Numbered from the stretch's first letter, positions 23,134 through 60,167 are shown. The stretch is DNA of 64,000 nucleotides from Acidobacteriota bacterium (GCA_026394015.1 JAPKZA010000216.1:1-64000), one strand, 5' to 3'. The notes: generated by a model not told the origin, from the sequence alone. Numbers and translations are program-made.

Positions 23134-23859
23134 CTACTGATGAGGAAATGAATTTCTCGTCGCAGAGAGTGCGGCGAAGCACCCGCTCTTGTGCACGACG
23201 TCCACCGCTCCGAATCCGGCGCGGGTAAGCGTCGCCAATTGAAACGGAAGGCTCCGCGGGGAATCTTCATGCGCGATGTAGGCGTAGACATGGTCACGAT
23301 AAGCCTCTCCTTTTAGGGATGCGAGAAACGCGCCATAAACGTGCCACATTTCTTCCTGCACCCCTGGGATATCGTGTTCAATTAGGTCCCAGATCCAAAA
23401 GCTGCCGCCCGGGCGAAGGCTGCGGAATATATTTGTAAATACGGCGAGCCACTCTGCTTCCGTCCGCAGATGATGAAGAACCGCTGCCGCCACGACGATG
23501 TCGTAGTGCTCAACCGGCAATTCCGCCGCGCGCAGGTCGGCCGCTTGCGGCACCAACCGCGCCGTGGTGGCAGCGGAAAGCCGCTCGACGGCGCGGTTCA
23601 GCATCGGCGTCGACAGGTCGACCAGACCAATCTCTTCGAAGTCAAATGCCTGGGAAAGCTTGAGCGCGAAGTTGCCGGCGCCGCAGCCCAAGTCCAGAAG
23701 ACGAGTCGCGTGCGGGGTAGTGCGACGGGCGCAGTTGGCGATATGGTCGAGGACGATGGCAGCGTCCTGAGTCGTCATCTGGCCGGTTTCAAGGCTCGAG
23801 AAGCGCTCGACGTCATGGTCGAAGCGATGGCGGATTTCATCGATGGAGGCTTTGTTCAT
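23134..23859 (-). CDS. Class I SAM-dependent methyltransferase
   Basis: 241 residues. Motif I is LLDLGCGAGNFALKLS, motif II EEIGLVDLSTPML, and YDIVVAAAVLHHLRTEAEW plus SLRPGGSFWIWDL complete a full Rossmann methyltransferase of the Methyltransf_11/25 type. The substrate is probably a small molecule but cannot be named. The start overlaps the end of the DUF3857 gene by 23 bases, so it is read from the same transcript. Confidence 0.85.
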   Translation of the reverse strand: MNKASIDEIRHRFDHDVERFSSLETGQMTTQDAAIVLDHIANCARRTTPHATRLLDLGCGAGNFALKLSQAFDFEEIGLVDLSTPMLNRAVERLSAATTARLVPQAADLRAAELPVEHYDIVVAAAVLHHLRTEAEWLAVFTNIFRSLRPGGSFWIWDLIEHDIPGVQEEMWHVYGAFLASLKGEAYRDHVYAYIAHEDSPRSLPFQLATLTRAGFGAVDVVHKSGCFAALSATRNSFPHQ

Positions 23860-26761
23860 GAGGGGCTCGCCGGAGCACGAGGAGTGGGTTTTCCGCCACG
23901 TCTCGACGCTCCAGCACTAGCTTACCGCCCCGGAAGACCGCTCCGTCGGGCAGCTCTTCGACCAGGAGATCCGCCGGAAGCGTAATTTCCACCGTTTCGT
24001 GGAAGGCCACCGGCACCGCGAAGTCGGCGAGCAGAAACGGCCTGAGGAGCAGCAGTTCAGGCCCGGCCGCACGCAGACCGGCCGTGAACTCGTAGTAGAG
24101 GTGAAGACCGGCTCCGGGGAACTCATCCCTCACCTGCACGCGCTCACCAAGTTCCCGAGCGCGATAAGCGGCGGCGGCATGTCCACGAGAACTTTCGAGC
24201 ACGCGGCCGCCAACGCTGCCATCCGCCGTCAGCGTTAGATGAACCGACCGTTCCACCGCCGCCACCTCGCCGACCGGAGTATTCGCTAGCCTCGCTCCGG
24301 GAGCGAAGAGCAGGGACGGAGAGTTTTGCAGCGCCACGGGAAGGTCACCGAGCGAAACATACGGATCGGAAGGATCGAAGTACCGCAGGCCGTCCGGTGT
24401 CGCGATGGCGAGAATCGCATGGTTGAACAAGCGAGGCGAAGGCCATTCGGGTCGAACTCGTTGCCGATCCGTCGAGTTGATGGCGACGAGCCAGGATTCG
24501 ATTCCCTCCGCCCGCAGCAAAGTCCGCAGCAGGTTGGCTTTGTCTTTACAATCCCCGTAGCCCTGCGCCAGAACGGCATCGGCTTCGCGGGGCACGAACC
24601 CGCCACCGCCACTCGAGTTCACGTTGACCGCCACATAGCGAAGACGCTGCACGAACGCCGCCAAGGCGCGGATCGGGTCGGCTTGATTGCGGACGAGCGA
24701 GGCCGCCCGGGCAGCGATTACCGGCGTGAGGCGGGCCGCCGGCTCGGCCTGAGCGGCAAGCCACTCAGCAACATCGGACCAGGTAGCAAACGCGGAACCC
24801 ACCGTTATGGCAAGCCGGGGAGAGGGTCCGGAACTCGCCGGAAGATCATAAGCGGTCCATGTTTGGCCCGCCACGGTCGGTTGAACGTCAAAAAGATGCG
24901 CACGGACCGGCCAACCAGCCGGGCTCGACAGCGAGAAGCGGCTGCAAGCAACCGGCAGACCATCGGGCTGGAACTCGTACTCAAACTGGTGGAACACGGA
25001 TTGGGTCGTGACCACCGCCTCGTAGACGAACACGCTACCAACTGCGGCCGAAACGGCGATCGTCCTCTGCCGGAGCGAGGTGTGCAGCTCCCCCTGGTTC
25101 ACGGCTCGATCTGTGAACTCGGCGGGTCCGAACTCGCGTAATTCGCCCGATGGAGCCACGAGCCAGGCGCGAAACGAGACCACCCGGCCCCCGGTCGCAT
25201 CGTAAACAATGCCCCCGCGAGCTGCCGTCGACCCCGCGGCCGTCAAAATGCGGATAACGGAGCGAGTGGTCGTCGTCTGGCGACCAGAGGGCTCGGCGAC
25301 CACGGATTCCTCCCGCAGCAAAACGTGAGCCGAGGGACCGGTCGGCGATGGAGCCGTCGCGGCCTCTTGAAACCACGTGAGAGGCCTCCGTATGGGCAGG
25401 ATGTCGCCTTTGTCGGATTCGTAGGTGTGGCCGGGAGGCAGCGTGAAGACAGCCTTGGCCCCGAAGAAATTCGTCGGCAGGAAGAGGCGCCGGGCGGATC
25501 GTTCAGCGTAGTTCGGAACGTAGATATCGAACTCGAGCTGAACCGGAACAGCCGGCAGCGCGATGTTCCTGACGGAGATGTTTGTGAGTTGAGCCCCGGG
25601 ATACTCGCTCCGAATATCGGCCAGCCGTTCCGTGGCGGACGGCCTTTCCGCTTTCCGCTTGCGGGCAGCGGCGGCAAGGCCGTGATAGGTAAGTTCGATG
25701 CGGCCGGAGACTGATCCGTCGGCGGCGAGCGCCAAACGGGTCTGCCGTTCGGTTCGACTTAGGTGCGGAGCCGAACGAGGAAGGGTCACAAAAACCGGAC
25801 CCTCCGGAGTAGCCAGTAGAGCCGGTTGACCCTCTTCGTCGGCGTCGAGGAGTCCGGCGGAAAGATAGGGAACGCCAGGATTGAAGAAAGCATAGCCGGT
25901 CGAAAGACGGACAGCGATCACCTCATTCTGCAGTTGGGCGGGGTCGAGGATTTCGCGCCGGAAGTCGGGGGTGCCAACGCGAACATAAAAAACGGTGTGA
26001 CCGGCGGCGCGAGCCAGGGCCGCGAAGAGCAGGTTGATTTCATGAGAGGTGCCGATCCCACGGCGCAGCGTCTCGGCCGGCGACGCGTTCGGCTCGGCGC
26101 GATCGGCGGGCGAGAGGTTGTCCGTGCGATACAGGCTGTTCTTGATCCGGGTGCGGCAGAATTCGGCCAGAGCGTTCAAATCGCTCTCGGGTCGAGGGGA
26201 AACGGGCGCAAGCTCCTGCTCAAAGGTCGCTGCGAGTTGGGCGGCGTGAGAGCGCCAGAATTCGTCCGGCGGTTGAGAAGAGCGCGGGGTCAGCAGGAGG
26301 TAAGCGGGAGGGGCAGTCGACAGAGGAGCCAGGTCGGCGGTGCAGTTATCGCAGTGGAAGTAGTGCGGTTGCCACGAAGGCGGATAGGAAACCGTCCGGC
26401 GGCGGATCGGCAGATCCCGTTGGAGAGGAATGGAAAGGGGAAGAGAAAGCGGTTCGGCGTAGGACTCGGTGTATTGGTATTCGATGATGCTGCCGGGTTC
26501 GAGGGCCGGGAACACGATAGAACCATCATCGAGCAACGGCGACGGCGAAACGCTGATCTCTGCGCCGCTGGGCAGCACCGTCCGCGCTTTGACCGCGCAA
26601 AGACTATGCCCCTCGTGCGGGATCACGACGTTGCCATGGCGGCTGAGGTCTCTTTGGTCAGAGAGCTGGATTCGAACCGAGTGGGTGATTTCGTGCGGAG
26701 GAAGAACGCGGGTATCCCAGAGCAGGATTTCGGCGAAGGCCAGCAGGATGGTCATGAGCAA
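23837..26761 (-). CDS. Two-module DUF3857/transglutaminase-like protein
   Basis: 974 residues with a short signal peptide. It is built from two DUF3857-transglutaminase modules. The second is complete: GYGDCKDKANLL (Cys738), FNHAIL (His781) and YFDPSDPY (Asp796) form the catalytic triad pattern. In the first, the same position reads GIGTSHEINLL, with Ser239 instead of Cys, so that module is probably inactive and structural. Such proteins are periplasmic and of unknown substrate; cysteine-protease or transglutaminase chemistry is expected. It follows the KASIII gene by 70 bases and may be a distal part of that operon. Confidence 0.8.
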   Translation of the reverse strand: MLMTILLAFAEILLWDTRVLPPHEITHSVRIQLSDQRDLSRHGNVVIPHEGHSLCAVKARTVLPSGAEISVSPSPLLDDGSIVFPALEPGSIIEYQYTESYAEPLSLPLSIPLQRDLPIRRRTVSYPPSWQPHYFHCDNCTADLAPLSTAPPAYLLLTPRSSQPPDEFWRSHAAQLAATFEQELAPVSPRPESDLNALAEFCRTRIKNSLYRTDNLSPADRAEPNASPAETLRRGIGTSHEINLLFAALARAAGHTVFYVRVGTPDFRREILDPAQLQNEVIAVRLSTGYAFFNPGVPYLSAGLLDADEEGQPALLATPEGPVFVTLPRSAPHLSRTERQTRLALAADGSVSGRIELTYHGLAAAARKRKAERPSATERLADIRSEYPGAQLTNISVRNIALPAVPVQLEFDIYVPNYAERSARRLFLPTNFFGAKAVFTLPPGHTYESDKGDILPIRRPLTWFQEAATAPSPTGPSAHVLLREESVVAEPSGRQTTTTRSVIRILTAAGSTAARGGIVYDATGGRVVSFRAWLVAPSGELREFGPAEFTDRAVNQGELHTSLRQRTIAVSAAVGSVFVYEAVVTTQSVFHQFEYEFQPDGLPVACSRFSLSSPAGWPVRAHLFDVQPTVAGQTWTAYDLPASSGPSPRLAITVGSAFATWSDVAEWLAAQAEPAARLTPVIAARAASLVRNQADPIRALAAFVQRLRYVAVNVNSSGGGGFVPREADAVLAQGYGDCKDKANLLRTLLRAEGIESWLVAINSTDRQRVRPEWPSPRLFNHAILAIATPDGLRYFDPSDPYVSLGDLPVALQNSPSLLFAPGARLANTPVGEVAAVERSVHLTLTADGSVGGRVLESSRGHAAAAYRARELGERVQVRDEFPGAGLHLYYEFTAGLRAAGPELLLLRPFLLADFAVPVAFHETVEITLPADLLVEELPDGAVFRGGKLVLERRDVAENPLLVLRRAPHEQSLHR

Positions 26762-26831: not shown

Positions 26832-27764
26832 TTAGGTTTCGACCTGAGCGAGGAGAGCACCCCAATGAAACCCCGCGCCGAAGGCGGCAAAGCAGACGGG
26901 TTCGCCGGTGGGCCAGCCCGATTCCGCCCATTCCGCGGCGGCGATGAGCATGCTGGCTGAACTGGTATTGCCGTAGCGGGCGATGTTCGAATAGAAGCGA
27001 TCAGCCGGGACTTCGAGTGCAAGCGCGACCCGATCAATCAGGTTCTGATTGGCTTGGTGCATCAAAAACGTCCCGACGTCGGCGGCTTTGCGGCCATGCT
27101 TTTCGAGCAGTTCACTGATGGCGCGCGGAACTTTGCGCGATGCCTGCAGAATGACCGAGCGGCCATTCATTTCGAGGGGTCGATCAAACGGCAGCCGGAG
27201 GTCTTCCGCAAACGCCCCATCCGAGTGAAGGGCGCTGCCGAGCACGCGAGCTTTCCCTTCGGTAGGACTGACGAGACACGCACCCGCGCCATCGCCGAAC
27301 AGGATTGCGACGCCCCGCTCCATCGGCTGGCGGAGGACGACGCTGGACATTTTCTCCGCGCCGATGACGAGGATTTCGCCCAGGCTGTCGCACAGCCGCG
27401 AGGCCAGGGACATCGCGAAAAGGGTTCCCGCGCTAGCCAGCGGAACGTCAATCGCGGGAGTGCTATCGAGACCGAGACGATGGGCAACGGTCGCGGCGGG
27501 GCCGGGAAATTGTCGTTCGGCACTGCCGCTGGCGATGAGGATCATGCCGAGTGCGGAAGCCGAGAGTTTGGCCTTGTCGAGACACGATTGCGCGGCGCGG
27601 AGAGCGAGATCGGCAACGGACTCGTCATCGGCGGCGAAGCGGCGCTGCTCGATACCGCTGACGTTTTTGATCCACTCCGCGTCGCAGCCGACGTGAGCGC
27701 CAATCTCCGCATTGGAGACGATCCGTTCCGGGAGGTAGGATCCGAATTCACGAAGGAAGGGCAC
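26832..27764 (-). CDS. KASIII (FabH)-like acyltransferase with Ser at the active-site Cys position
   Basis: 310 residues, thiolase fold of 3-oxoacyl-ACP synthase III type. The His and Asn of the triad are present (LMHQANQNLID, His236; YGNTSSAS, Asn266), as is FGDGAGACLV. The nucleophile segment, however, reads AIDVPLASAG: Ser111 (codon AGC) where FabH has Cys. A Ser KASIII such as DpsC can still transfer acyl groups, so acyl transfer rather than classical fatty-acid initiation is likely. It lies five bases after the ACP gene, in an operon with MBOAT and SGNH genes, and is probably a loader or acyltransferase for that ACP. That function is inference. Confidence 0.85.
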   Translation of the reverse strand: MPFLREFGSYLPERIVSNAEIGAHVGCDAEWIKNVSGIEQRRFAADDESVADLALRAAQSCLDKAKLSASALGMILIASGSAERQFPGPAATVAHRLGLDSTPAIDVPLASAGTLFAMSLASRLCDSLGEILVIGAEKMSSVVLRQPMERGVAILFGDGAGACLVSPTEGKARVLGSALHSDGAFAEDLRLPFDRPLEMNGRSVILQASRKVPRAISELLEKHGRKAADVGTFLMHQANQNLIDRVALALEVPADRFYSNIARYGNTSSASMLIAAAEWAESGWPTGEPVCFAAFGAGFHWGALLAQVET

Positions 27765-27769
27765 GCGGC

Positions 27770-28006
27770 TTATTTCCCGTGGTCTTCCAAGTAGGCTTCG
27801 ATCCGTTCGATCGAGTCAAACTTGCGAGGGTTCAGGTCGGCGTCCGGGATCTTGCAATCGAAGGACTTTTCGATCGCCGAAACGAGGTCAGCGAGGGCGA
27901 ACGAATCGAGCAGACCGGAGTCAAACAGCGATTCGTCGGCGGCGGGAGAGATGGCCTTGCCGGCGATCTCGTTCAGGATTTCATTGATTTTCGTTCGCTT
28001 GTCCAT
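27770..28006 (-). CDS. Dedicated acyl carrier protein
   Basis: 78 residues, acidic and helical. The phosphopantetheine site is Ser35 in GLLDSFALADL, a D-S-F variant of the usual D-S-L/M. The family holds acyl groups as thioesters on 4'-phosphopantetheine in the cytoplasm. Its start lies inside the end of the SGNH gene (26-base overlap) and it precedes the KASIII-like gene by five bases. Neither a malonyl transferase nor reductase genes are near, so it is likely not the housekeeping ACP but one serving the MBOAT cluster, comparable to DltC. Confidence 0.85.
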   Translation of the reverse strand: MDKRTKINEILNEIAGKAISPAADESLFDSGLLDSFALADLVSAIEKSFDCKIPDADLNPRKFDSIERIEAYLEDHGK

Positions 28007-29363
28007 TCAGTATCTTTGAAGCAATTGGGGATGTACTTGGGGCCGTAGCGGTGGATTCGTTGCGCACTCTGACGTAGGTAGCGAACTGACCCATCAATTC
28101 CTTATACAACGCCGCGCCGAGAAGACGGTATCCTTCGCCGGTAAAATGCACATAATCGCCTTGGGCCATGCCCGCGGCGACCCATTTTCCCATCGCGCCT
28201 TTGCCGCCCATCCGTTCGCGGAGGTCCCAGAAGGCGGCGCCGCTGGCGAGCGTCGCTTCGCGCTGGGCGTCGATAATGAGGTCAATTTTTTCGTGGGAGG
28301 CGAGTCCGGTGCGATAGCGGAAGAAGTGGTCGGGAGGGCCGATGACGAGAATCGAGGCCGACGGGGCCAACCGGCGGTAGCGGGCGAGAAGCTGGACAAA
28401 CATGTCGCGATAGGACTCGTGGGTCCAGTCTTTGTTGCGTGCCTCGTTGGTGCCGTAGGCCAGAATAATCAGGCCCGGCGGACGGCGGCGGTAGTATTCG
28501 GCCAGGATGGATTCTTCCCACTTGAGCCCGATATTCGCCTGCGCCCCATTCAGGCCGAGCATGTCGTAGGTGAGGCCGCGAGGATTCTCCGTGACCCAGC
28601 CGAAGAGCCGGACCTGTCCGCCGCCGCGCGTGCGCGCTGAAAGCTGGTGCAGGCCGGGGCTGACGGGGAGAGTAAAGACGCCGGCACCGGGTTCACCGGC
28701 CGTGGAGATGGTATCGATGATGACGCCGTTGTCAGCGACCTCGACGAGGCCGCCGGCGGGTTGGCGGAGGAAGTGGAGTTCGGCGGAGCTGCATTCCGCT
28801 TGAAGGGTGACCGCTTCGCCCGCGCGGGCGGTGGACATGGAGACACCGGATAGGCCGTACATGCCATCGCCATCCCGACCGACGAGGCCATCCGAATACC
28901 AGGCGCGGGTGGAAGACGACTTGATGTCGAGGCGGCGGTAGCCGAGGTATGGATGTCCCGCGTGCGTGAAGCCCGGGCCGCCATCGCCGAAGCGAGCCTG
29001 GAGGAGGTAACGGGCGGTGCCGGACCAGTCATCCGCAGCGGTGTGCGAATCGCCGTATTGGAGAATTCGAAGGACGTCCTTGCCGAGGCCGCTCTCGAGA
29101 CGGTAGAGCTGTTCAAAGAAGGGAACGAGAGCCGCGGGGTGCTCCATCGTGCCGGGCTGATTGAGCCACTCGGTGACGCTCGTGGAAGCGGCGGCGCGAA
29201 CCTGGGGAGCGACGGGCGCGGGACGGGCCACGGCGACTCGCTTTTTCGTGGACTTGGCTTTCGACTTGGACTTGGCGACTGGCTTTTTCTTAGCGGGCGC
29301 GCCGAGAGACACTGTGCCTAGGAGGATGAAGGCGAGGCAAGCGGCGGCGAGGAGTCGATTCAA
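27981..29363 (-). CDS. SGNH/GDSL hydrolase-like protein, exported (second of a tandem pair)
   Basis: 460 residues with a signal peptide followed by a Lys/Ala-rich stretch (about 23-45). The SGNH catalytic blocks are all present: ILQYGDSHTAADDW (Ser106), LAYGTNEARN and GDYVHFTGEGY (Asp-x-x-His). The region between block I and the Asn block is an inserted beta-rich domain. Close relatives of such proteins sit beside MBOAT genes and act as periplasmic O-acyltransferases or esterases (compare DltD, AlgX/AlgJ). It comes 17 bases after the paralogue at 29381. Confidence 0.8.
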   Translation of the reverse strand: MNRLLAAACLAFILLGTVSLGAPAKKKPVAKSKSKAKSTKKRVAVARPAPVAPQVRAAASTSVTEWLNQPGTMEHPAALVPFFEQLYRLESGLGKDVLRILQYGDSHTAADDWSGTARYLLQARFGDGGPGFTHAGHPYLGYRRLDIKSSSTRAWYSDGLVGRDGDGMYGLSGVSMSTARAGEAVTLQAECSSAELHFLRQPAGGLVEVADNGVIIDTISTAGEPGAGVFTLPVSPGLHQLSARTRGGGQVRLFGWVTENPRGLTYDMLGLNGAQANIGLKWEESILAEYYRRRPPGLIILAYGTNEARNKDWTHESYRDMFVQLLARYRRLAPSASILVIGPPDHFFRYRTGLASHEKIDLIIDAQREATLASGAAFWDLRERMGGKGAMGKWVAAGMAQGDYVHFTGEGYRLLGAALYKELMGQFATYVRVRNESTATAPSTSPIASKILNGQANENQ

Positions 29364-29380
29364 AGTTCAAGTTGCCTGGG

Positions 29381-30766
29381 TCAGTTTGCTGGGGACGATG
29401 ACAGCACCTTAATTGTCGCAAACTTCTCCTTGGCGATGCGGAGCTTGTGCGCGCGGTAGCCCTGTTGGAGAGACTTGTAAAGGAGGTTGCCAACGATCTT
29501 GGCTCCGCCGGGCATGGGATGGATGAAGTCCGCGCCGACGAGGCGGGGTTCGGCGTGATACCAACGGCCCATCGTGCCGGGGCCGCCCATGGCTTCAAAC
29601 GTATTGAAGAAGGCGCAGCCCTTTTCGGCGGCCACCCTTTGTTCAATGGCGACGAGGCGGGACAATGCCGGGACGGTAGTGATCTCTCCATCCGATCCTT
29701 TTTGGCCGCGATCCATGGGCGACATTATGAGGATGGCCGCTTGCGGAACAGCCTTGCGGACGCGGGCGATGGTGCGGAGGAGTTCGCGTTCGAAGGCGGT
29801 ATCGACGAACTGGGTATAGACGCTCTCGTTGGTGCCGTAGTTAATGATGACCAGGTTCGGGCGATGGTGCTGAAGCTGATCGGCCCAGTGCTGTTCGTCG
29901 ACCATGCGGGCGAGGATGGAGATATAGGCCCCGTTGACGCCGAGGGAGTTGTACTCCACGCCAGGCACGGCTTTCGAAAAGCGGAAGCCATAGAGGCGAA
30001 TCTTGCCGGTGACGTTCGAGAGTTGGAGTTCGCGGACGCCGGAGGGGAGATTGAAGGTTTGGAAGGAGGGGGTGACGACCGGGGAGGCGGTATCGACGAC
30101 GCCGAGTTCGGTGCCGTCGGCGAGGAGGCGGAAGGTGCCGCCGTCGGGCTGCGAGAGGAAGGAGACTTCGACGGCGGAGTGGGTCGTATCTTTCAGGATG
30201 ATGCGGGACTGCGATGCGGCGGAGCCGCGGAAGGAGACGGCGCCGAGACCGTAGAGACCATCCTTGATTTCCGCGGTGTTGGCGGGCTCAATTTTCCAGC
30301 CTGAGGATTTGATCTCCAGCCCACGATGGCCGTACCACGCCCAAGGCTTGCCGACGAGGGCGAAGCCGTGGCCGGCGTCGCCGAAATCCTTCTGGAAGAG
30401 GAAGCGGACGTCGGCAGTGATGAGGTCGGCAGTGGTGGGCGAGTCGCCGTAGTGAAGGATGCGAGTGATGGCGCCGGGGTCCTTCCGTTCCGTGGAGTAG
30501 AGGGAAGCGAAGAAGGGTTCGAGGGCGTTGGAGGGATCGATGAGCGGCCGGATTTCGGCCTTTTCGACGGAGGTATCGGGCTTGAGGCGCTGCTGCTCTT
30601 CCTCGATGGGGTTTTCGGATTTGATGCGGGGCTGAAATTCGACGACCTTGGCGAAGGAGGTCCAATCGATGACGTGGTAGTCCTTAAAGGCGGGAATGAG
30701 ATCGGGGACGCTCAGCATGACGCCGAGGGTGAGGACGGTGAGAGTGAGCTTAGGAGGAAGGAGCAC
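29381..30766 (-). CDS. SGNH/GDSL hydrolase-like protein, membrane anchored (first of a tandem pair)
   Basis: 461 residues. An uncleaved N-terminal membrane segment is likely (TLTVLTLGVMLSVPDLIP). Catalytic blocks: ILHYGDSPTTADL (Ser109), IINYGTNES and GADFIHPMPGG (Asp-x-x-His). The overall layout matches the paralogue downstream, with the same inserted beta domain, so they probably arose by duplication. Two bases separate it from the MBOAT gene upstream. It is expected to sit in the periplasm, receiving or removing acyl groups passed by the MBOAT protein. Confidence 0.8.
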   Translation of the reverse strand: MLLPPKLTLTVLTLGVMLSVPDLIPAFKDYHVIDWTSFAKVVEFQPRIKSENPIEEEQQRLKPDTSVEKAEIRPLIDPSNALEPFFASLYSTERKDPGAITRILHYGDSPTTADLITADVRFLFQKDFGDAGHGFALVGKPWAWYGHRGLEIKSSGWKIEPANTAEIKDGLYGLGAVSFRGSAASQSRIILKDTTHSAVEVSFLSQPDGGTFRLLADGTELGVVDTASPVVTPSFQTFNLPSGVRELQLSNVTGKIRLYGFRFSKAVPGVEYNSLGVNGAYISILARMVDEQHWADQLQHHRPNLVIINYGTNESVYTQFVDTAFERELLRTIARVRKAVPQAAILIMSPMDRGQKGSDGEITTVPALSRLVAIEQRVAAEKGCAFFNTFEAMGGPGTMGRWYHAEPRLVGADFIHPMPGGAKIVGNLLYKSLQQGYRAHKLRIAKEKFATIKVLSSSPAN

Positions 30767-30768
30767 GC

Positions 30769-32166
30769 CTAGAAGTTAGTGTAGATAAACGGGGCGGCCC
30801 CTGTCGCGGCGATGTACTGAATGGCCACGATTAGGGCCATTATCGCAGCGGCCTGGACGACGAAGGGGGAGCGGACGAAGGTTTCCCGGATTTGTTCGAA
30901 CCAGGATTTGGGGAGGTAGTGGCCAGCGACGGCGATGCTAAGGACGATCCAGAGGGGTCGGGAGACGTTGTCAACCGAGTAGGTGAACTCGCCGAGCTGC
31001 TCGATGATTTTGCTGGCCTGTTCGAGGTTGGTGGCCCGGAAGAAGATCCAGGCGAAGCAGACGAACTGCACGGTGCAGAAGGTGCGGAACCAGGCGGGTG
31101 TCCAAGGGGTGGCTTTGTGGCCGCGCCAGGACTGCCAGCCCCGGGCGACGGCCTGGGCGACGCCATGGAGAAGGCCCCAGATGACGAAGTTCCAACTGGC
31201 CCCATGCCAGAGCCCGCCGAGCGCCATGGTGATGATGATGTTGCAGTACGGCATGACGGCGTTCCGTTTGCCGGGGAGGGAGAAGAAGAGGTAGTCCCGG
31301 AGCCAGTTCGAGAGGGAGATGTGCCAGCGGCGCCAGAAGTCGTTGATGTTGGCGGCGGCATAGGGCATGTTGAAGTTCTGGGGGAGCTTGATGCCGAGGA
31401 GCAGGGCGGAGCCGATGGCGACGTCGGTATAGCCGGAGAAGTCGAAATAGAGCTGGAGGGCGTAAGCGTAGACGCCGGTAAGGACTTCGGCGGAGGAGTA
31501 GAGGCCGGGGAAGTCGAAGACGCGGTTGACCAGGTTTTCGGCGAGGTAGTCGGCGAGAAGGAGTTTCTTGAGGAGGCCGAGGCTGATGAGGAAGAGGGCG
31601 CGGCTTCCATCGGCGGCGTCGAGGGTTTTATTGGGCTTTTCGAACTGTTTCAGGAGATCGGAGACGCGGGTGATGGGTCCGGCGAGGATGGTGGGGAAGA
31701 AGGAGGTGGCGGTGAGATGGGCGAGCAGGGAGCGGGTGGGTTTGGCGTCTTTGCGGTAGACGTCGATGGTATAGGTGAGGGATTGGAAGGCGTAGAAGGA
31801 GATGCCGAGGGGGAAGGTCCACTGCCAGAGCGGCGCGGGGCGGCCGGAGAGGCGGGTGAAGTTATCGAGGAAGAAGGGCATGTACTTGAAAGCCGCGAGC
31901 ATGCCGAGATTGAGGAGGAGGCTGAGGGAGACGAGGAGTTTTCTGACGCTGGGGCGTTGGAAGCGACCGAGGCCGAGGCCGATGGCGAAGTCACAAGTGG
32001 AGCAGAGAGGGATGAGGAAGAGGTAGAAGAGGTCCCACTTGGCGTAGAAGAAGTAGTTGGCGAAGAGGAGGACGGCTAGGCCGGCGGCGCGCCACCGCGA
32101 CAGCGGCCAGTACACGAAGAACAGGGCCGAGAGAAAGAGGAAGTAGGTAGAGCTGGAGAGGAGCAT
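30769..32166 (-). CDS. MBOAT family O-acyltransferase (AlgI/DltB-like)
   Basis: 465 residues with about ten membrane segments. It has the MBOAT hallmarks: FPLGISFYAFQSLTYTIDVY, QLYFDFSGYTDVAIG, NINDFWRRWHISLSNWLRDY (His282) and LGGLWHGASWNF with the conserved His321. AlgI and DltB enzymes move acyl groups from a cytoplasmic donor through the membrane to a periplasmic partner that modifies a polymer. It is first in the operon MBOAT-SGNH-SGNH-ACP-KASIII. Its leader contains a strong intrinsic terminator ending 16 bases before the ATG. Confidence 0.9.
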   Translation of the reverse strand: MLLSSSTYFLFLSALFFVYWPLSRWRAAGLAVLLFANYFFYAKWDLFYLFLIPLCSTCDFAIGLGLGRFQRPSVRKLLVSLSLLLNLGMLAAFKYMPFFLDNFTRLSGRPAPLWQWTFPLGISFYAFQSLTYTIDVYRKDAKPTRSLLAHLTATSFFPTILAGPITRVSDLLKQFEKPNKTLDAADGSRALFLISLGLLKKLLLADYLAENLVNRVFDFPGLYSSAEVLTGVYAYALQLYFDFSGYTDVAIGSALLLGIKLPQNFNMPYAAANINDFWRRWHISLSNWLRDYLFFSLPGKRNAVMPYCNIIITMALGGLWHGASWNFVIWGLLHGVAQAVARGWQSWRGHKATPWTPAWFRTFCTVQFVCFAWIFFRATNLEQASKIIEQLGEFTYSVDNVSRPLWIVLSIAVAGHYLPKSWFEQIRETFVRSPFVVQAAAIMALIVAIQYIAATGAAPFIYTNF

Positions 32167-34069: not shown

Positions 34070-34609
34070 ATGGCCTCTCACCTTGGTCAGAACACGTCGG
34101 TTCTCGATATGCTCGCCTGGAGCAAAGGAATAGTGTCTGACTTGCACGCCAGCGTCGAACAGCTCTTCTTCGAACGGCGCGAGGAGATCTATATCTACCT
34201 GGTTTCGCGGGGGGCACCGCCGGAAGACGCCCAGGACATGACGCAGGAATCCTTCTTGAAGTTCTACGTTGCCTTGCGGGAGGGGCAGCGGATTGAGAAT
34301 CCCCGGGCGTGGCTCTATACGGTCGCTCACAATCTGGCGACGAATGCGCGGCTCCGCGGCGCGAGGGTGTTCGAGATTTCGGAGGTTGCCGCGGAAAACC
34401 CGGAATCGCTCGTGCTCGCGAGCGAGCGCACGGAACAGCTACGGCTCGCCATTGGAAACCTGTCGCCGCAGCAGCGATCCTGCCTGCATCTGCGCGCGGA
34501 GGGGTTTCGCTACCGAGAGATCGCCGGAATACTCGAAATCAACCCGTCCACGGTAGGGGAGTTCCTGCAGCGTGCGGTAAAGCGTTTACGAAAGGTGCTT
34601 TATGAATAG
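34070..34609 (+). CDS. ECF RNA polymerase sigma factor
   Basis: 179 residues. Region 2 is seen in APPEDAQDMTQESFLKFYVA and NPRAWLYTVAHNLATNARLR, region 4 in LSPQQRSCLHLRAEGFRYRE with a helix-turn-helix ending INPSTVGEFLQRAVKRLRK. Its overlap of eight bases with an anti-sigma gene makes regulation by sequestration very likely. The start is uncertain: no clear Shine-Dalgarno before 34070, and an ATG at 34109 is possible. The TonB receptor further along the operon suggests a surface-signalling circuit, although no STN domain is evident there. Confidence 0.85.
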   Translation: MASHLGQNTSVLDMLAWSKGIVSDLHASVEQLFFERREEIYIYLVSRGAPPEDAQDMTQESFLKFYVALREGQRIENPRAWLYTVAHNLATNARLRGARVFEISEVAAENPESLVLASERTEQLRLAIGNLSPQQRSCLHLRAEGFRYREIAGILEINPSTVGEFLQRAVKRLRKVLYE

Positions 34610-35648
34610 CCCGACCTCGCAGCACCCGGATGAAATCGAATTGATGCGTTTTCTCGACGGTGAGTTGTCCGATCGGGAGGCGCGAGCGCTTCGGCATCAT
34701 ACCGATTCCTGCTGGCAATGCCGCCGAGACTTAAATGAGATGCAGACCACCATCGATGTGTATTTGCGGGTACGGGAGTCCATTTCTTATCCGCCGGCAC
34801 CGCGGGCGTGGATGCCTCTGCGATTTCCTGTCCTCGAACAGCCTCGAAGAGTCTGGCCGGTGTGGCGGTTGGCGTTGGCCGCCGGCACCGTATTCGCGGG
34901 AGTGATTCTTTTTCGACCCGCGGTCCCCGTTGCGGTGCAGAGGCCGACGGCTTCCGAAGCCGTAACGGCTCCGATCCCTGCCCCGGTTGCTCCTCCCACC
35001 TCCCGACCGGCCCGGGAGAAAGCAGTGGCCGTTTCGTTAGTTTCACTGGAAGTCCAAGTGCTGGCGGGCTTGCACCGGGTGGGGGCCGATCTCGGGGAAG
35101 CCGTGGAGGTGATCGTCGAGAAGGACGGCGTTCTCGTCCGGGGCACGGCTTTGGATCCGGGACGAGCGGCGATCCTTCGTGAAGCGATAGCCGGGGTTCG
35201 ACTGGAGTTGGTAGAGCCGAAGGCCATCGTGGCGGATGGCGGTACCGCCACCACCGTCGTGCCACGGCCCACCGTGTTTGGAGTCCGTGATGACGCGGCG
35301 AACGCGGTAATCGATGAGAGTGACGCCATCGTCGCCCGGGCGCATGCTCTGGCGCGGCTGGCGGCACGTTTTCAGGGTGTCAGCCTCTCCACGGAGGACG
35401 TGCAGACGATTCGCGAGATCGAGAACGACCACCGGACTTCGCTGCGCCAGCATGCCGTACAGTTACGAAAGCGGCTGGCTGCCTTGCGGGCGCCGGAGGC
35501 GGCGGGGGAGGATTTGCGGCCGATGGCAGAGTTGGCGCGGGATCTGGACGAACTAGTAAGCGCAGGGTTTGCCGGCGCCCAGAGTCCCTTATCCGATGAC
35601 GAGATCGTTGGGAGATTGCAGCGTATTCTCCGGGGGCTGACACGGTGA
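34602..35648 (+). CDS. Zinc-binding anti-sigma factor with periplasmic domain
   Basis: 348 residues. The N-terminal zinc-finger anti-sigma domain has His33, Cys37 and Cys40 (H-x3-C-x2-C) in HHTDSCWQCRRD, preceded by LMRFLDGELSDREARAL. One membrane segment follows at about 86-104 (VWRLALAAGTVFAGVILF). The periplasmic part contains a BON-like unit (VIVEKDGVLVRGTALDPGRA) and a helical tail. It overlaps both neighbours: eight bases with the sigma gene, four with the TonB receptor (GTGA). The long periplasmic portion may sense the receptor or a ligand, which is inferred. Confidence 0.8.
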   Translation: MNSPTSQHPDEIELMRFLDGELSDREARALRHHTDSCWQCRRDLNEMQTTIDVYLRVRESISYPPAPRAWMPLRFPVLEQPRRVWPVWRLALAAGTVFAGVILFRPAVPVAVQRPTASEAVTAPIPAPVAPPTSRPAREKAVAVSLVSLEVQVLAGLHRVGADLGEAVEVIVEKDGVLVRGTALDPGRAAILREAIAGVRLELVEPKAIVADGGTATTVVPRPTVFGVRDDAANAVIDESDAIVARAHALARLAARFQGVSLSTEDVQTIREIENDHRTSLRQHAVQLRKRLAALRAPEAAGEDLRPMAELARDLDELVSAGFAGAQSPLSDDEIVGRLQRILRGLTR

Positions 35649-38600
35649 GGACTCTTTTGTTGTTGATCGGATGCTCGACGGCTTTCGCGCAGGAGGCGCA
35701 GGTCTCGGGACTGGTGCGCGACGGATCGGAAGCGGTGATGCCGCAGGTGCAGATTGCGATCGTCAATCAGGAGACGGGAATGCGGCGGTCGGCCCAGACT
35801 AATTCCTCGGGGCTCTATGCGGTATCGGGGATCAAGCCGGGCGTCTATAAGGTCACGGCCCGGCGAGCCGGATTTCAGACCGTGACGCGCACGAATATCA
35901 AGCTGGATGTGGCGCAGGCGGCGCGGGTGGATTTGGTCCTTCCGATTTCGGTTGTCGGCGAGAGCGTCACGGTCTCCGATGGCAGCGCGGTGCTGGCGCG
36001 GGTGGATGCCACGGTGAGCACGGTGATCAACCGGCAGTTTGTGGAGAATCTGCCGATGAATGGGCGGAGTTTGCAATCGCTGATCGCGCTGACGCCGGGC
36101 GTGGTGATGACTAAAGCGACTTTCGGTGAACAGGGGCAGTTTTCCGTGAATGGGCAACGGGCGAACGCGAACTACTTCACGCTGGATGGTGTGAGCGCCA
36201 ACATTGGCGTGAGCGCGGGGTTGACGCTGGTGCAGTCGTCATCGGGATCGCTGCCGGGCCTGGGCGCGACCGGTGGCACGAATACGCTGGTCTCGGTGGA
36301 AGCGCTGGAAGAGTTTCGCGTGCAAACCTCGAGCTACCCGGCTGAGTATGGCCGCATGCCTGGGGCGCAGGTTACGATGCTGACGCGGAGCGGAACGAAT
36401 CGCCTCCACGGCGTGCTGTTCGACTACTTCCGCAACGACGTGCTGGATGCCAACGACTGGTTTGCCAATGCGGAGCGGCTGCCCAAACCAGCCTTGCGCC
36501 AGAATGACTTTGGCGGCGTGCTGGGCGGGCCTATCCGCAAGGACCGCACGTTCTTCTTCGGCTCCTACGAAGGGCTGCGGCTGCGGCAGCCGCAGGTGCA
36601 GTCGACGGATGTGCCGACGCTCGATTCGCGATCGCGCGCGGGCCGGTCCACGAAGAAGTTCCTGGATGCCTTTCCGCTTCCCAACCGGCCCGACGGCCGC
36701 TTGGGCTTCGCGCCTTTCGTGGCCAGCTATACGGACAGTTCTTCGCTGGATGCGTCGAGCTTACGGCTCGATCACCTCTTCGGCACGCGCGTCACTCTAT
36801 TTGGCCGCTATAACCATGCGCCGTCGAACACCGTGGCGCGTCTGCTCTCCCTGAATAACCCGACCACCACGGTAGCCAATACAGACACGTTGACGCTGGG
36901 GACCACGTGGATGCTAAGCCCGCGACTGACGAACGAACTGCGCTTTAATCACAGCTACACGACGGGCGAGAGTTTCAGCCGGTTGGACGACTTCGGCGGC
37001 GCCAGGCCCTTATCGCCCGAGGAGTTCTTCCCCGCCACTGTGGACATTGCCAATGCCTTCGGCGGCTACACGCTCAGCGGCGGCATCAACAGCGGCTGGT
37101 ACCTGGGAAGGAACGTGAGTAATTCGCAGCGCCAGTGGAACCTCGTCAATAACGTCTCGTTTGTACAGGGCGCGCATCAGTGGAAGTTCGGCGTGGACAG
37201 CCGCGTCCTTTCCACCCGCAACAATCCTCGCGCCTACGATCAATTCTTCACCTTCGTCGGCACGTTCGGAGCCGTCTTTGGGCAGACCGCGCAGACCGCC
37301 ATCGGGGCGCAGGAAGACATCACCGTCCATGTGCGCAACTGGTCGTTCTTTGGGCAGGACACGTGGAAGTTGCATCCGCGATTTACGCTGAGCTACGGGC
37401 TCCGCTGGGAGGTGAACCCGGCACCCACCGGGTCCAGGCCGCTGTACACCTATATCGTTCCAACGGACCGGCGGCAGATCCGGCCGGCCGCGCCCGGCAC
37501 GCCGCTTTATGAGACGGACCTTCGCGGCTTTGCCCCGCGCGTGGGCGCGGTGTGGCAACTGGATCCTACGGCCGGCCGCGAGACTACCATTCGCGCGGGC
37601 TGGGGCCTGTTTCATGATCTGGGCGCCGGGATTATCGGCCAGGCCGCGGCGGGTTACCCCTACTTCCGCCAGCGCATCTATGTGCAAGGGACTTCGTTTC
37701 CTTTGCCGTCCGAGCTGGCCAAGCCGCCGGAGTTCTCTCTCGATCCGCCCATCGCCTCCATCTACGGAGCGGAGCGCCAGCTGCGCCTTCCGGTTACCTA
37801 CCAATGGAACGTGACGGTGGAACGGGCGCTGGGGCGCAGTCGCGTGGCCTCGCTTGGCTACGTGGGGGCGGCCGGCCGGCGGCTGTTGCGGCAGGAGTAT
37901 TGGGTGAATCCCAATGACAACATCACGTACGCCTACCTGCTGCGGAACCGCGCCTTTTCGGATTTCCATTCCTTGCAGGCGCAAGTGCAACAGCGGTTGA
38001 CGCGGGGGGTGCAGGGCTTGGTCTCTTATACGTGGGGTAAGTCGCTGGATACGAATTCCAACGACTCGGCTTCCAACCTGATCGCCCTTCAGATCGATCC
38101 GCAGCGGGATCGCGGCCCCTCGGACTTTGATATCCGCCATACGCTCTCCGCCGCCTGGAGCTGGGAGTTGCCGGGCTGGTTGAAGGGCTTCGGGCTGGAT
38201 GGCGTCGTGAGCATGCGTACCGCTACGCCGGTGGATGTCACCTTCTACCGCGACCTGGGCTTTGGCATTTATAACCTGCGGCCGGATGTTGTGGCCGGCC
38301 AGCCGCTGATGGTGGCGGATGCGAACGTGGCGGGCGGGCGGCGCTTCAACTACGACGCGTTTGAGATTCCACAGGAGTTTCCGGGGCGGCAGGGAACGCT
38401 GGGGCGGAATGTTCTTCGCGGGTTTGGGTTGGCGCAGTTGAACCTGACCGTCCGGCGGGAGTTCCAGATCTGGGAGTCGCTGAAATTGCAGGTGCGCGCG
38501 GAGATGTTCAACGCGCTGAACCAGCCGGCCTTTGCGGACCCGGCGGGAACGCTGCTGAGTCCGCAGTTCGGCTATTCGACGCGGATGCTCGGGCGCAGCC

Positions 38601-38692
38601 TTGGGCGCGGGGGCGTGAATGGCGGGTTGAACCCGCTGTATCAGATCGGCGGGCCAAGGTCGGTGCAGTTGGCGATGCGATTGGTGTTTTAA
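35645..38692 (+). CDS. TonB-dependent receptor with carboxypeptidase regulatory-like domain (Oar-type)
   Basis: 1015 residues from a GTG. A signal peptide (LLLLIGCSTAFAQ) leads into a carboxypeptidase regulatory-like domain (AQVSGLVRDGSEAVMPQVQI), a plug (VENLPMNGRSLQSLIALTPG), and a large beta-barrel ending SVQLAMRLVF with the terminal Phe of outer-membrane proteins. This is the enlarged acidobacterial Oar/TonB type, probably importing glycans or peptides. No TonB box could be identified with confidence. Codons here favour G at third positions, unlike the C-ending glycan block. Confidence 0.9.
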   Translation: MRTLLLLIGCSTAFAQEAQVSGLVRDGSEAVMPQVQIAIVNQETGMRRSAQTNSSGLYAVSGIKPGVYKVTARRAGFQTVTRTNIKLDVAQAARVDLVLPISVVGESVTVSDGSAVLARVDATVSTVINRQFVENLPMNGRSLQSLIALTPGVVMTKATFGEQGQFSVNGQRANANYFTLDGVSANIGVSAGLTLVQSSSGSLPGLGATGGTNTLVSVEALEEFRVQTSSYPAEYGRMPGAQVTMLTRSGTNRLHGVLFDYFRNDVLDANDWFANAERLPKPALRQNDFGGVLGGPIRKDRTFFFGSYEGLRLRQPQVQSTDVPTLDSRSRAGRSTKKFLDAFPLPNRPDGRLGFAPFVASYTDSSSLDASSLRLDHLFGTRVTLFGRYNHAPSNTVARLLSLNNPTTTVANTDTLTLGTTWMLSPRLTNELRFNHSYTTGESFSRLDDFGGARPLSPEEFFPATVDIANAFGGYTLSGGINSGWYLGRNVSNSQRQWNLVNNVSFVQGAHQWKFGVDSRVLSTRNNPRAYDQFFTFVGTFGAVFGQTAQTAIGAQEDITVHVRNWSFFGQDTWKLHPRFTLSYGLRWEVNPAPTGSRPLYTYIVPTDRRQIRPAAPGTPLYETDLRGFAPRVGAVWQLDPTAGRETTIRAGWGLFHDLGAGIIGQAAAGYPYFRQRIYVQGTSFPLPSELAKPPEFSLDPPIASIYGAERQLRLPVTYQWNVTVERALGRSRVASLGYVGAAGRRLLRQEYWVNPNDNITYAYLLRNRAFSDFHSLQAQVQQRLTRGVQGLVSYTWGKSLDTNSNDSASNLIALQIDPQRDRGPSDFDIRHTLSAAWSWELPGWLKGFGLDGVVSMRTATPVDVTFYRDLGFGIYNLRPDVVAGQPLMVADANVAGGRRFNYDAFEIPQEFPGRQGTLGRNVLRGFGLAQLNLTVRREFQIWESLKLQVRAEMFNALNQPAFADPAGTLLSPQFGYSTRMLGRSLGRGGVNGGLNPLYQIGGPRSVQLAMRLVF

Positions 38693-57288: not shown

Positions 57289-58971
57289 TTAAAGAGCAGG
57301 CGGAAGTACGCACCGGAAGCCGATATTGGAGCTGGAAAACCGGGCGGGGAGGCTGACCCATTCATAGGCTAACGCTTCGGAGATCCCGCGATCATAGGAG
57401 CCGCCTTTGATGTACTCCCAGGGTTCTTGCGCATTGGGCGGTGGCTTCAGGGCAGTGCGCAGGCTTTCGACGGCCGCGGGGCTGGGCGAGTGGGGCCGGT
57501 CCACCCATTCCCAAACGTTGCCCGCCATGTGCAGCACGCCGAAGGGGCTTTTGCCGACGGCGAGAGAATCCACCGCCGCCGGGCCGGAGGCGGCGAGGGG
57601 ATTTTCTTTCGCGATGACCAGATCGGCCTTTAGCTCGCTGCCCCAGGGGTAGGTGCGGCCATCGGTGCCGCGTGCGGCTTTCTCCCACTGGGATTCGGTG
57701 GGAAGTTGCTTGCCGGCCCATTTGCAAAAGGCCTGGGCTTGGTTGAAAGAGACGTTAACGACCGGGAGATTCGATGCACCGGTGGGCAGGGGAAGGCCGT
57801 TGGCCGCCGCGAACTCGGAATAGGCTTGGTTCGAGACTTCCGTTCGATCGATCGAAAAAGCGGGCAGATCGACCGAGACTTTACTCATCCCGGCCAAGTA
57901 AGGACCGGCGGGAACGGGGAGGACGGAGCCGCCTTTGACGGGCAGCGTTTGCTTCGGTTCGGGCTGTTTGGCGTTCGGCTCGGTTTTGGTATTGCTGTAA
58001 TAGAACCAACCGGAGACAGCGGCGGCGACGAGCACGACAGCGACACCGGCTACGGCCAGGATCGGAACGAGATTCGAATTCGCAGGGGCGGGAGTCGGGA
58101 TCGGGGTTGGGGTCGGGGAGTAGTTGTACGAGGGCTGGGTGGCAGCCGGCGGCGGATAGTTCCCGGCGAGAATACCCTTTAGCGCATCGGCGATGGCATT
58201 GAAGCTTTGAATCCGATGCTCGGGCTTCTTGGCCGTGCAGCGTTGGATGAGATCCATCACGCTGGGCGGAGTGCCCGAGGCGAGCAAAGGGTTCGGATCG
58301 GGATGCTCGTTCAGGATGATGTAGAAGAGGCGCTGGAGGGTATCGCCGGTGACGGGTTTGACACCGCTGAAGAGTTCGTACAGCAACATGCCGTAGGAGT
58401 AGACGTCGGCCAGCGGGGTGATGGTCGCCCCCATGACCTGCTCGGGCGACATGTAGAACGGCGTGCCCATGGAGTTTCCCGCTTTCGTCAGGTTGAAACC
58501 TTCGGCTTTGGCGATGCCGAAATCCATGAGCTTGGAGCGGCCGGACTCTTCGATGTAGATGTTCTCGGGTTTAATGTCGCGATGGATGATGCCGCGCTGA
58601 TGGACGTAGGCCAGGGCTTGGGCGACTTCCAGGGCGATCCGCGTCTTGTTGGCGACATCGCCGACATGATTTTTACGGATAGCCTCGCGGAGATCTTCGC
58701 CGTGAAGAAATTCGAGAACGATGAAGGGATAGCCCTGCTCTTCCCCGTAATCGTGCACGGTGACGATGTAGTCGTGCTGAATCGAGCCCGACATGCGGGC
58801 TTCGTGAAGAAACCGCTGCTTGGCTTCTTCGTCCTTGATGCCTTGTTCCGTGAGGATTTTTACGGCGACAGTACGGCCGATCACCGTGTCAACAGCCCGG
58901 TAGACGTGAGACATGCCTCCGCCGAGGAACTCCTGCAACTCGTATTTGGCAAAGCGCGCCGGCAGCTGCAT
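57289..58971 (-). CDS. Ser/Thr protein kinase fused to an FGE/SUMF1-like domain (PpkA-TagR-like)
   Basis: 560 residues. The kinase has LGGGMSHVYR (Gly loop), Lys38 in VAVKIL, IIHRDIKPEN (Asp132) and MDFGIAK (Asp150), all catalytic. A Pro-rich linker (275-297), one membrane segment (about 301-325) and a C-terminal formylglycine-generating-enzyme/SUMF1-type domain follow (about 355-556), with SIDRTEVSNQAYSEF, KQLPTESQWEKAARG and AGNVWEWVD. The FGE domain should lie in the periplasm. In Pseudomonas H1-T6SS the kinase PpkA is activated by the separate FGE-like protein TagR, so this is probably a one-chain version. It stands with TssM and TssL. Confidence 0.85.
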   Translation of the reverse strand: MQLPARFAKYELQEFLGGGMSHVYRAVDTVIGRTVAVKILTEQGIKDEEAKQRFLHEARMSGSIQHDYIVTVHDYGEEQGYPFIVLEFLHGEDLREAIRKNHVGDVANKTRIALEVAQALAYVHQRGIIHRDIKPENIYIEESGRSKLMDFGIAKAEGFNLTKAGNSMGTPFYMSPEQVMGATITPLADVYSYGMLLYELFSGVKPVTGDTLQRLFYIILNEHPDPNPLLASGTPPSVMDLIQRCTAKKPEHRIQSFNAIADALKGILAGNYPPPAATQPSYNYSPTPTPIPTPAPANSNLVPILAVAGVAVVLVAAAVSGWFYYSNTKTEPNAKQPEPKQTLPVKGGSVLPVPAGPYLAGMSKVSVDLPAFSIDRTEVSNQAYSEFAAANGLPLPTGASNLPVVNVSFNQAQAFCKWAGKQLPTESQWEKAARGTDGRTYPWGSELKADLVIAKENPLAASGPAAVDSLAVGKSPFGVLHMAGNVWEWVDRPHSPSPAAVESLRTALKPPPNAQEPWEYIKGGSYDRGISEALAYEWVSLPARFSSSNIGFRCVLPPAL

Positions 58972-58981
58972 ACGGGATCGA

Positions 58982-60139
58982 TTACGACACTAACGACAGG
59001 AGAGAGTAGAGGATCCCCATGACGAGAAGGACGCCGACGGCGACCAGGATCATGAGCCCGGTTTGGCTTTGGAGCGGGGCCGGGAGGACGCGAAGAAACG
59101 CGGGCAGGCCGTCGTCTGGAGGAGGTGCCTGCGCGACCGGGACGGGCGCGGTGTAAGCGGCGGAAGGGGTATACGGCGCAGCCTGCTGGGTCGGCCGGGC
59201 GGCGGAGGGCATCGTTGCTGAGGGCTGCGGGGCCGACGGCTGCGCGGACGTCGGAGACGGTGGTTGCTGCAACGAGCCAGGAGGGGGCATCGAGATAGAA
59301 CCGGTGACTGGCCGCAGGGGCGCGGGGCTGAGGCCGAGAAAACGCTCGATATCGACGGCGGCGTCCCAAAGGCGAGGGTAGCGGTCCTGCGGGCTCTTGG
59401 CGGTACAGCGAGTGACAATCTGAATCACCGGATCCGCCACACCAGCTTGGCGGAGAGTGTCGGTATTGAGCGGCTCGTAAAGAATCTGATGGAAGATCCT
59501 TTCGATGGTCTCGCCGTTAATCGGCTTGAGGCCGGTGAGCATTTCAGACAGCAGGATACCGAAAGCGTAGACGTCCACCGCGTGCGTCACTTGTTGGCCC
59601 AGAACCTGCTCCGGGGCCATGTAGTAGGGCGTCCCAAGGGTGAAGCCGGCGCGGGTCAACTGCATCCCTTCGGACTTCGCGATGCCGAAATCCATCAGTT
59701 TGATGCGACCGGTCTGATCGATCTGGAGATTTTCGGGTTTGATATCCCGGTGGATGATTTTCTTCTGATGGATGTAGTCGATCGCCTTGGCGATTTGGAC
59801 GGCCAGCAGGAGGCGATTGCGCGAGTCCCCGGCCCGACCGCTGCGGAGGGCTTCGCGGAGACTTTCGCCGCGCAAGAACTCCATGACGATAAAGGGCTTG
59901 CCTTGTTCCTCGCCGAAATCATGGACGCTGATGATGTTTTCGTGGACGATGCTGGAGGCGAGGCGGGCTTCTTGAAGAAAGCGGGCTTTGGCTTCGGCGT
60001 CGACGGCACCTTGCTCAGTCAGGATTTTGACGGCAACGGTGCGGCCTAGGACAGTATCTTGGGCGCGATAGACGTGCGACATACCGCCGCCCAGGAATTC
60101 CTGAAGTTCGTACTTGCCGATGCGTGAGGGAAGCTGCAT
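58982..60139 (-). CDS. Transmembrane Ser/Thr protein kinase
   Basis: 385 residues. The N-terminal kinase domain (about 1-270) is closely similar to that of the downstream kinase: ELQEFLGGGMSHVYRAQDTV and IIHRDIKPENLQIDQ, with the DFG motif as MDFGIAK. The C-terminal region is a Pro/Ser/Ala-rich linker and one membrane segment (about 359-382) with almost no periplasmic tail. All catalytic residues are there. It is likely to phosphorylate a T6SS regulator such as an FHA protein, which is not in the window. Ten bases separate it from the next kinase gene. Confidence 0.85.
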   Translation of the reverse strand: MQLPSRIGKYELQEFLGGGMSHVYRAQDTVLGRTVAVKILTEQGAVDAEAKARFLQEARLASSIVHENIISVHDFGEEQGKPFIVMEFLRGESLREALRSGRAGDSRNRLLLAVQIAKAIDYIHQKKIIHRDIKPENLQIDQTGRIKLMDFGIAKSEGMQLTRAGFTLGTPYYMAPEQVLGQQVTHAVDVYAFGILLSEMLTGLKPINGETIERIFHQILYEPLNTDTLRQAGVADPVIQIVTRCTAKSPQDRYPRLWDAAVDIERFLGLSPAPLRPVTGSISMPPPGSLQQPPSPTSAQPSAPQPSATMPSAARPTQQAAPYTPSAAYTAPVPVAQAPPPDDGLPAFLRVLPAPLQSQTGLMILVAVGVLLVMGILYSLLSLVS

Positions 60140-60167
60140 TGGATTGGGGTATTACCTCCACATGGTA

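Follow-up and report, generated by a model that had tools for sequence, protein, structure and literature searches.

The genome assembly GCA_026394015.1 of a soil acidobacterium carries, on the minus strand of a 64,000-nucleotide stretch (JAPKZA010000216.1:1-64000, the window in what follows), a compact five-gene operon (26832-32166) that encodes, in this order, a membrane-bound O-acyltransferase (MBOAT), two SGNH proteins (SGNH1 and SGNH2), an acyl carrier protein (ACP), and a protein with the fold of β-ketoacyl-ACP synthase III (KASIII). The contig is part of a 7.9-Mb genome, and the closest named relatives, among the matches listed, are Bryobacteraceae, Solibacter, and other Acidobacteriota. 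Recomputation of the open reading frames (ORFs) reproduced exactly the five genes, coordinates, and spacings (gaps of 2 and 17 bases, a 26-base overlap, and a gap of 5 bases) reported in an initial annotation of this DNA, which had described the block as a dlt-like acyl-transfer operon with a Ser-type KASIII protein in place of DltA; each of the family identities that it assigned is backed by Pfam (Table 1), with Lipase_GDSL_2 scores of 53 and 45 bits for the two SGNH proteins.

Table 1. Features of the five-gene operon, in window positions
Feature	Position	Strand	Support
MBOAT membrane O-acyltransferase, 465 aa, operon gene 1	30769..32166	-	Pfam MBOAT 98 bits
MBOAT acyl-shuttle hexapeptide FIYTNF (F-x-Y-x-x-F, Tyr462), C-terminal	30772..30789	-	
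MBOAT donor-side loop SLPGKR, replacing PLGG(N/S)R of ordinary MBOATs	31264..31281	-	
MBOAT catalytic His321 codon (WHG)	31204..31206	-	invariant in alignment
SGNH1, Ape1-like, with inserted carbohydrate-binding-type domain, 461 aa	29381..30766	-	Pfam Lipase_GDSL_2
SGNH2, second Ape1-like SGNH protein, 460 aa	27981..29363	-	Pfam Lipase_GDSL_2
Dedicated DltC-like ACP, 78 aa, phosphopantetheine site Ser35 (LDSF)	27770..28006	-	Pfam PP-binding 36 bits
Ser-type KASIII-fold protein, 310 aa	26832..27764	-	Pfam ACP_syn_III 59 bits and ACP_syn_III_C 81 bits
KASIII nucleophile-position Ser111 codon (AGC)	27432..27434	-	Ser in 36/36 clade members
KASIII His236 codon (FabH H244)	27057..27059	-	His in 36/36
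KASIII Asn266 codon (FabH N274)	26967..26969	-	Asn in 36/36

Conservation and co-occurrence of the operon genes

The five-gene block is a real unit and more than a chance arrangement, because its conservation extends over genera, families, and classes of Acidobacteriota; conservation in relatives, on which the initial annotation had staked its proposal, was thus borne out. The order MBOAT-SGNH1-SGNH2-ACP-KASIII is kept in congeners (KASIII identity 73-99%), in five other genera of the same family (54-69%), and in Terriglobia/Acidobacteriaceae genomes, so that one order is common to Bryobacteraceae and Acidobacteriaceae. Other orders or orientations occur at loci L060, L178, L180, L233, L235, and L236 (L and G numbers are our identifiers for loci and genomes), including an ACP-KASIII pair in the opposite orientation from the genes for MBOAT and SGNH proteins at L060, L178, and L180, while genomes G132, G121, and G385 show the order SGNH2-MBOAT-SGNH1-ACP-KASIII. 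The parts can also be separated: G239, G341, G455, and G456 have the ACP-KASIII pair by itself in a stretch of about 20 kb and the MBOAT and SGNH genes elsewhere in the same genome; in G006, G013, and G018 the MBOAT lies on a separate contig; and in G036 and G343 the ACP remains in the MBOAT-SGNH cluster and a Cys-type KASIII is unlinked. With the pair detached in some genomes and the KASIII alone detached in others, the ACP therefore occurs linked to either half of the operon. The Bryobacteraceae genome G036, in which MBOAT, SGNH1, SGNH2, and ACP stand together in a cluster without a Ser-type KASIII (L032, G036:C271, 3960-4958), and which has its Cys-type KASIII, a member of the sister clade, at an unlinked place (L266, G036:C493), presents a natural exchange of the two enzyme types.

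The MBOAT, which is the only PF03062 match in its genome, belongs to a subfamily that we defined by a profile score of at least 494 bits (46 relatives). Over a sample of 396 Acidobacteriota genomes the score of this profile was bimodal, with 16 genomes at 506 bits or above and the next at 420 bits; the few non-acidobacterial genomes tested yielded only MBOATs of at most 389 bits. A Ser-type KASIII was present in 12 of the 396 genomes, 11 of which fall within the 16 high-scoring MBOAT genomes (hypergeometric P 6e-17, uncorrected for shared ancestry, with 7 genera involved); because the searches of the phylum scored no more than a few top candidates in each genome, absences in these counts are weaker than presences. 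Among the remaining five of the 16 genomes, G121, G132, G343, and G385 carry a Cys-type KASIII of the sister clade described below. Around ordinary MBOATs, no ACP or KASIII of the cluster type was found at nine loci.

Properties of the encoded proteins

The acyl-shuttle motif FXYXXF, the Tyr of which is acylated in PatA and DltX (PMC12148441), is found at the C-terminus of 46/46 subfamily MBOATs as well as of all 26 other MBOATs examined. What sets the subfamily apart is the loop after the conserved FWRRWHISLSNWLRDY: the pattern PLG[GA][NS][RQ] occurs in 23 of the 26 other MBOATs and in 0/46 subfamily members, which read SLPG(K/L)R or similar where ordinary MBOATs read PLGG(N/S)R. Since membership of the subfamily was set by a score, the uniformity of this loop is partly by construction, but its match with the presence of the ACP-KASIII pair is not. 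This donor-loop stretch aligns with the part of DltB where the residues contacting DltC lie (PMC9338922), and the DltB insert at that place is absent here; the MBOAT scores 181 of 375 bits against TIGR04091. A separate DltX-like microprotein was considered and set aside as unneeded, because the MBOAT carries the shuttle itself.

Both SGNH proteins keep the conserved residues of their family (Ser109, Asp413, and His416 in SGNH1; Ser106, Asp403, and His406 in SGNH2), and SGNH1 is probably periplasmic. The best solved relative by sequence is the peptidoglycan O-acetylesterase Ape1 (4k3u) for both (E 6e-28 for SGNH1 and 3e-46 for SGNH2). Predicted models (mean pLDDT 80 and 77, respectively) likewise have 4k3u as best match in the Protein Data Bank (PDB), with template-modelling (TM) scores, taken to the target, of 0.84 for SGNH1 and 0.86 for SGNH2, and in both models the match runs from end to end of the chain and takes in the inserted carbohydrate-binding-type domain. 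Neither protein is of the PatB (DUF459) type, as the Pfam scan gave only GDSL models and the best structures were Ape1; the same scan gave no DltD match, with Lipase_GDSL_2 found instead.

Because the shuttle is fused, the DltC-docking insert of DltB is absent, and both SGNH proteins are Ape1-like, the core of the operon is therefore best described as PatA/PatB/Ape1-like, with an added ACP-KASIII donor module. The term dlt-like thus fits the operon as an acyl-transfer unit whose ACP is dedicated and DltC-like, but does not fit its core. Like the O-acetylation of peptidoglycan (OAP) system PatA/PatB/Ape1, the operon has an MBOAT gene followed by two SGNH genes, as in the order pat-ape2(patB)-ape1a (PMC1199599), an MBOAT with C-terminal FXYXXF and conserved His321, and SGNH proteins that match Ape1 structures; unlike that system, it adds a carrier protein and a KASIII, has an altered MBOAT donor loop, and pairs two Ape1-like SGNH proteins with no PatB-type protein. 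MBOAT-SGNH pathways other than Dlt have been described in 2025 mechanistic work as lacking a carrier protein (PMC12148441). With Dlt (DltA-B-C-D-X) the operon shares the combination of MBOAT, carrier protein, and SGNH protein, and its ACP is nearest to DltC; however, Dlt has a separate DltX and DltD in place of Ape1-like proteins, and is a Gram-positive teichoic acid system, whereas the host here is an acidobacterium.

The ACP has DltC as its best NCBIfam model, although at 43.6 bits it stays below the cut-off of 68, and its best PDB matches are DltC chains in DltB-DltC complexes. A DltA that would load such a carrier was not found over the family cut-off in this genome: TIGR01734 gave 11 matches, of which the best reached 262 of 560 bits and none lies beside the operon. 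A DltA hidden elsewhere in the genome was rejected, as none passes the cut-off and the top four matches lie in ORFs of non-ribosomal peptide synthetase size. The replacement of DltA posited by the initial annotation is accordingly upheld to the extent that the place expected for a loading enzyme is taken by a Ser-type KASIII other than the housekeeping one.

The closest solved relatives of the KASIII are FabH proteins, and an alignment that spans the whole protein places its Ser111 (PLASAG) at E. coli FabH C112, His236 at H244, and Asn266 at N274. These three residues are invariant in 36/36 members of a Ser-type clade, which confirms the Ser-type assignment; the protein thus shares the fold of housekeeping FabH but has Ser for Cys in its Cys-His-Asn triad. 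It also differs from FabH at Arg36 and Arg249, which in FabH contact CoA and the ACP, respectively: none of the 36 Ser-clade proteins has Arg at the Arg36 position (mostly Val/Ala), and 34 of them have Asn at the Arg249 position, while other KASIIIs retain Arg36 in 27/31 and Arg249 in 30/31. Five Cys-type cluster KASIIIs differ from FabH at both positions as well. Since profile scores of the Cys-type cluster KASIIIs overlap with those of FabH and could not split the two, a tree was needed; in it, the Ser-type proteins form one clade (36/36, ultrafast bootstrap 100) whose sister is the clade of Cys-type cluster KASIIIs (support 100 for the two together), with housekeeping FabH apart. Because the Ser clade is monophyletic and has this sister, a single nucleophile change within an already specialised KASIII would be the simplest history. 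The system does not require the Ser-type nucleophile, because clusters of the same kind elsewhere come with KASIIIs of the Cys-type sister clade; in G036, a Cys-type enzyme goes with a Bryobacteraceae cluster of the usual kind.

The possibility, raised by the initial annotation against its own proposal, that the ACP and KASIII are simply the housekeeping pair was checked and rejected: the genome has its own Cys-type FabH (33% identical to the cluster KASIII) and its own fatty acid synthase (FAS)-type ACP (GADSLD), both on other contigs, and the cluster KASIII belongs to a separate clade with different residues. A separate KASIII group in which QCSG or QCTG replaces AACSG (L077, L078, L079, L080, L242, L244) was seen in metagenome-assembled genomes labelled Bacteroidia, Deltaproteobacteria, and Chloroflexi as well as Acidobacteriota.

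Proposed donor route and competing explanations

We propose that the operon belongs to the MBOAT-SGNH kind and serves the O-acylation of an envelope glycan, with a dedicated ACP, loaded by the KASIII-fold protein, as the donor; to this reading we give slightly better than an even chance. By established chemistry, the ACP would be phosphopantetheinylated at Ser35. The Ser-type KASIII, acting as an acyltransferase, would then charge the ACP, through an oxyester at Ser111, with a short acyl group that is most likely acetyl; a precedent is DpsC, a Ser-type KASIII acyltransferase to ACP (PMC12664062). At its donor loop on the cytoplasmic side, the MBOAT would accept the acyl group of acyl-ACP and, with His321, pass it to Tyr462 of FIYTNF, by analogy with PatA and DltX. 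One Ape1-like SGNH protein might move the group to a surface glycan, most likely peptidoglycan, and the other may share in this transfer or remove the group, which is the role of Ape1 in PatA/PatB/Ape1 clusters; peptidoglycan is probably the acceptor because the SGNH folds are Ape1-like. A short acyl group is indicated because 28/36 Ser-clade proteins have Phe at the pocket position corresponding to FabH F87, which disfavours the fatty acyl cargo that the initial annotation had thought possible and makes it unlikely.

Retention of nucleophile, His, and Asn together with loss of FabH Arg36 and Arg249 counts for the proposed loading of the ACP, and acetyl-ACP has precedent as a donor for an envelope precursor with GlmU (PMC8666670). 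DpsC, CerJ, and ChlB3, the last a KASIII-fold transferase to ACP (PMC9573744), share with the cluster KASIII the fold and, as we would assign it here, the acyl-transfer role, and DpsC shares the Ser. These enzymes belong to natural-product clusters, however, and have a Ser/Cys-His-Asp triad, while the cluster KASIII combines Ser with FabH-type His and Asn; in the alignment, its H+5 position is Asn241, not Asp. The ACP gene adjoins the KASIII gene in nearly all cases, which is suggestive at most.

Several observations weigh against the proposed route. The MBOAT is without the DltC-docking insert of DltB, and its shuttle is fused, as in proteins of the acyl-CoA type; transfer from ACP to MBOAT would find its support in linkage, co-occurrence, and the loop change. 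In G154 (L176) and G457 (L210), a Ser-type KASIII and ACP lie near or beside low-scoring MBOATs (334 and 274 bits) that keep most of the ordinary loop (SLGGNRR/PLGANRR) and are thus exceptions to the loop rule. The fifth of the high-scoring genomes outside the Ser-type overlap, G245 (L232, G245:C203), has an MBOAT of 569 bits and only a FabH-type KASIII was found in it, although the MBOAT contig is just 3.5 kb. Finally, DpsC has Ser-His-Asp where the cluster KASIII has Ser-His-Asn, and a His and an Asn so strictly kept would also fit decarboxylation of malonyl-ACP or condensation.

The last point makes malonyl-ACP decarboxylation the main rival for the KASIII step. His and Asn form the decarboxylation pair of KASIII enzymes, and both are invariant in 41/41 cluster proteins while Cys is replaced; a KASIII that acts like a KSQ enzyme on malonyl carried by the dedicated ACP, with the resulting acetyl-ACP used by the MBOAT, would have no need of an acyl-CoA primer, in keeping with the loss of the CoA-contact Arg36, and the acetyl-ACP precedent serves it equally. 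Known KSQ-type decarboxylases, however, have Gln at the nucleophile position, which in the cluster KASIIIs is always a nucleophile (Ser in 36/36 or Cys in 5/5) and so favours a covalent acyl-enzyme, and a malonyl transferase gene is not a recurrent neighbour of the operon at the compared loci. Because the nucleophile is kept in 41/41, we prefer acyl transfer and consider decarboxylation unlikely, if still a serious contender. The retained His and Asn would also suit a condensing enzyme that makes acetoacetyl- or branched β-ketoacyl-ACP, with the MBOAT then transferring to the glycan this group or the hydroxyacyl group obtained by its reduction, and the Cys-type sister clade, which has the same kind of cluster, could in principle condense. 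Yet Ser is a poor condensing residue at the nucleophile position, FabH R249 is lost, and no reductase gene recurs in the cluster among the compared loci, so that condensation appears the least probable of the explanations weighed here.

The KASIII and ACP could also have nothing to do with the acyl donor, with the core working as an ordinary PatA/PatB/Ape1 acetyl-CoA system and the pair serving a separate travelling function, e.g., regulation or lipid supply. The PatA/AlgI-type fused shuttle of the MBOAT, the detachment of the ACP-KASIII pair in several genomes, and the MBOAT of G245 without a detected cluster KASIII speak for this reading. Detached pairs nevertheless still co-occur with one MBOAT subfamily, MBOATs of pair-free genomes keep the PLGG loop, which is mostly lost where the pair is present, and the nine ordinary-MBOAT loci have neither an ACP nor a KASIII of the cluster kind; we therefore hold such a separate function to be quite improbable, although a shade less so than condensation.

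Current descriptions have MBOAT-SGNH acylation use acetyl-CoA, with the exception of Dlt, which has an adenylating ligase and a carrier (PMC12148441). If ACP loading by the KASIII is correct, it would add a new supply route for envelope acylation, tied to the acyl-ACP pool and allowing groups other than acetyl. The correlated loop change may mark MBOATs that use a carrier protein, and the Ser clade and its Cys sister clade in the same kind of system offer a natural comparison within one fold. More tentatively, and as a possibility that we consider unlikely in this stronger form, the operon could represent a third donor route beside acetyl-CoA (PatA) and adenylated D-Ala (Dlt), in which a Ser thiolase-fold protein charges a private ACP and the group that is placed on the surface glycan, be it peptidoglycan or another, might be something other than acetyl, such as propionyl, a branched short-chain group, or acetoacetyl. 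While the parts are of known kinds, a search of the open-access literature found no cluster of MBOAT, SGNH, ACP, and KASIII (FabH) genes, and none that combines a PatA/Ape1-like core, a DltC-like ACP, and a KASIII loader, in agreement with the initial annotation, which knew of no described system of this composition.

Flanking genes and the rest of the window

Scans of the window for Rfam families and tRNAs gave no match, promoter and terminator scans did not show a clear excess, and a reading of the operon as a defence system was rejected, as PADLOC gave no match. Directly downstream of the KASIII gene (23837-26761, minus strand) lies a gene for a 974-aa DUF3857 and transglutaminase-like protein that is kept only in close congeners; conservation of the flanking transglutaminase, methyltransferase, and glycosyltransferase genes as a whole ends at close congeners, and these neighbours gave no functional clue. 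On the plus strand at 34070-38692, a sigma-factor-like gene, a gene for a probable zinc-finger anti-sigma-like protein, and one for a putative 1015-aa carboxypeptidase-regulatory/TonB-like outer membrane protein stand in a row. Two tandem protein-kinase-like ORFs at 57292-60151 (minus strand) have nearly identical N-termini (KYELQEFLGGGMSHVYRA...) and are probably the product of a duplication.

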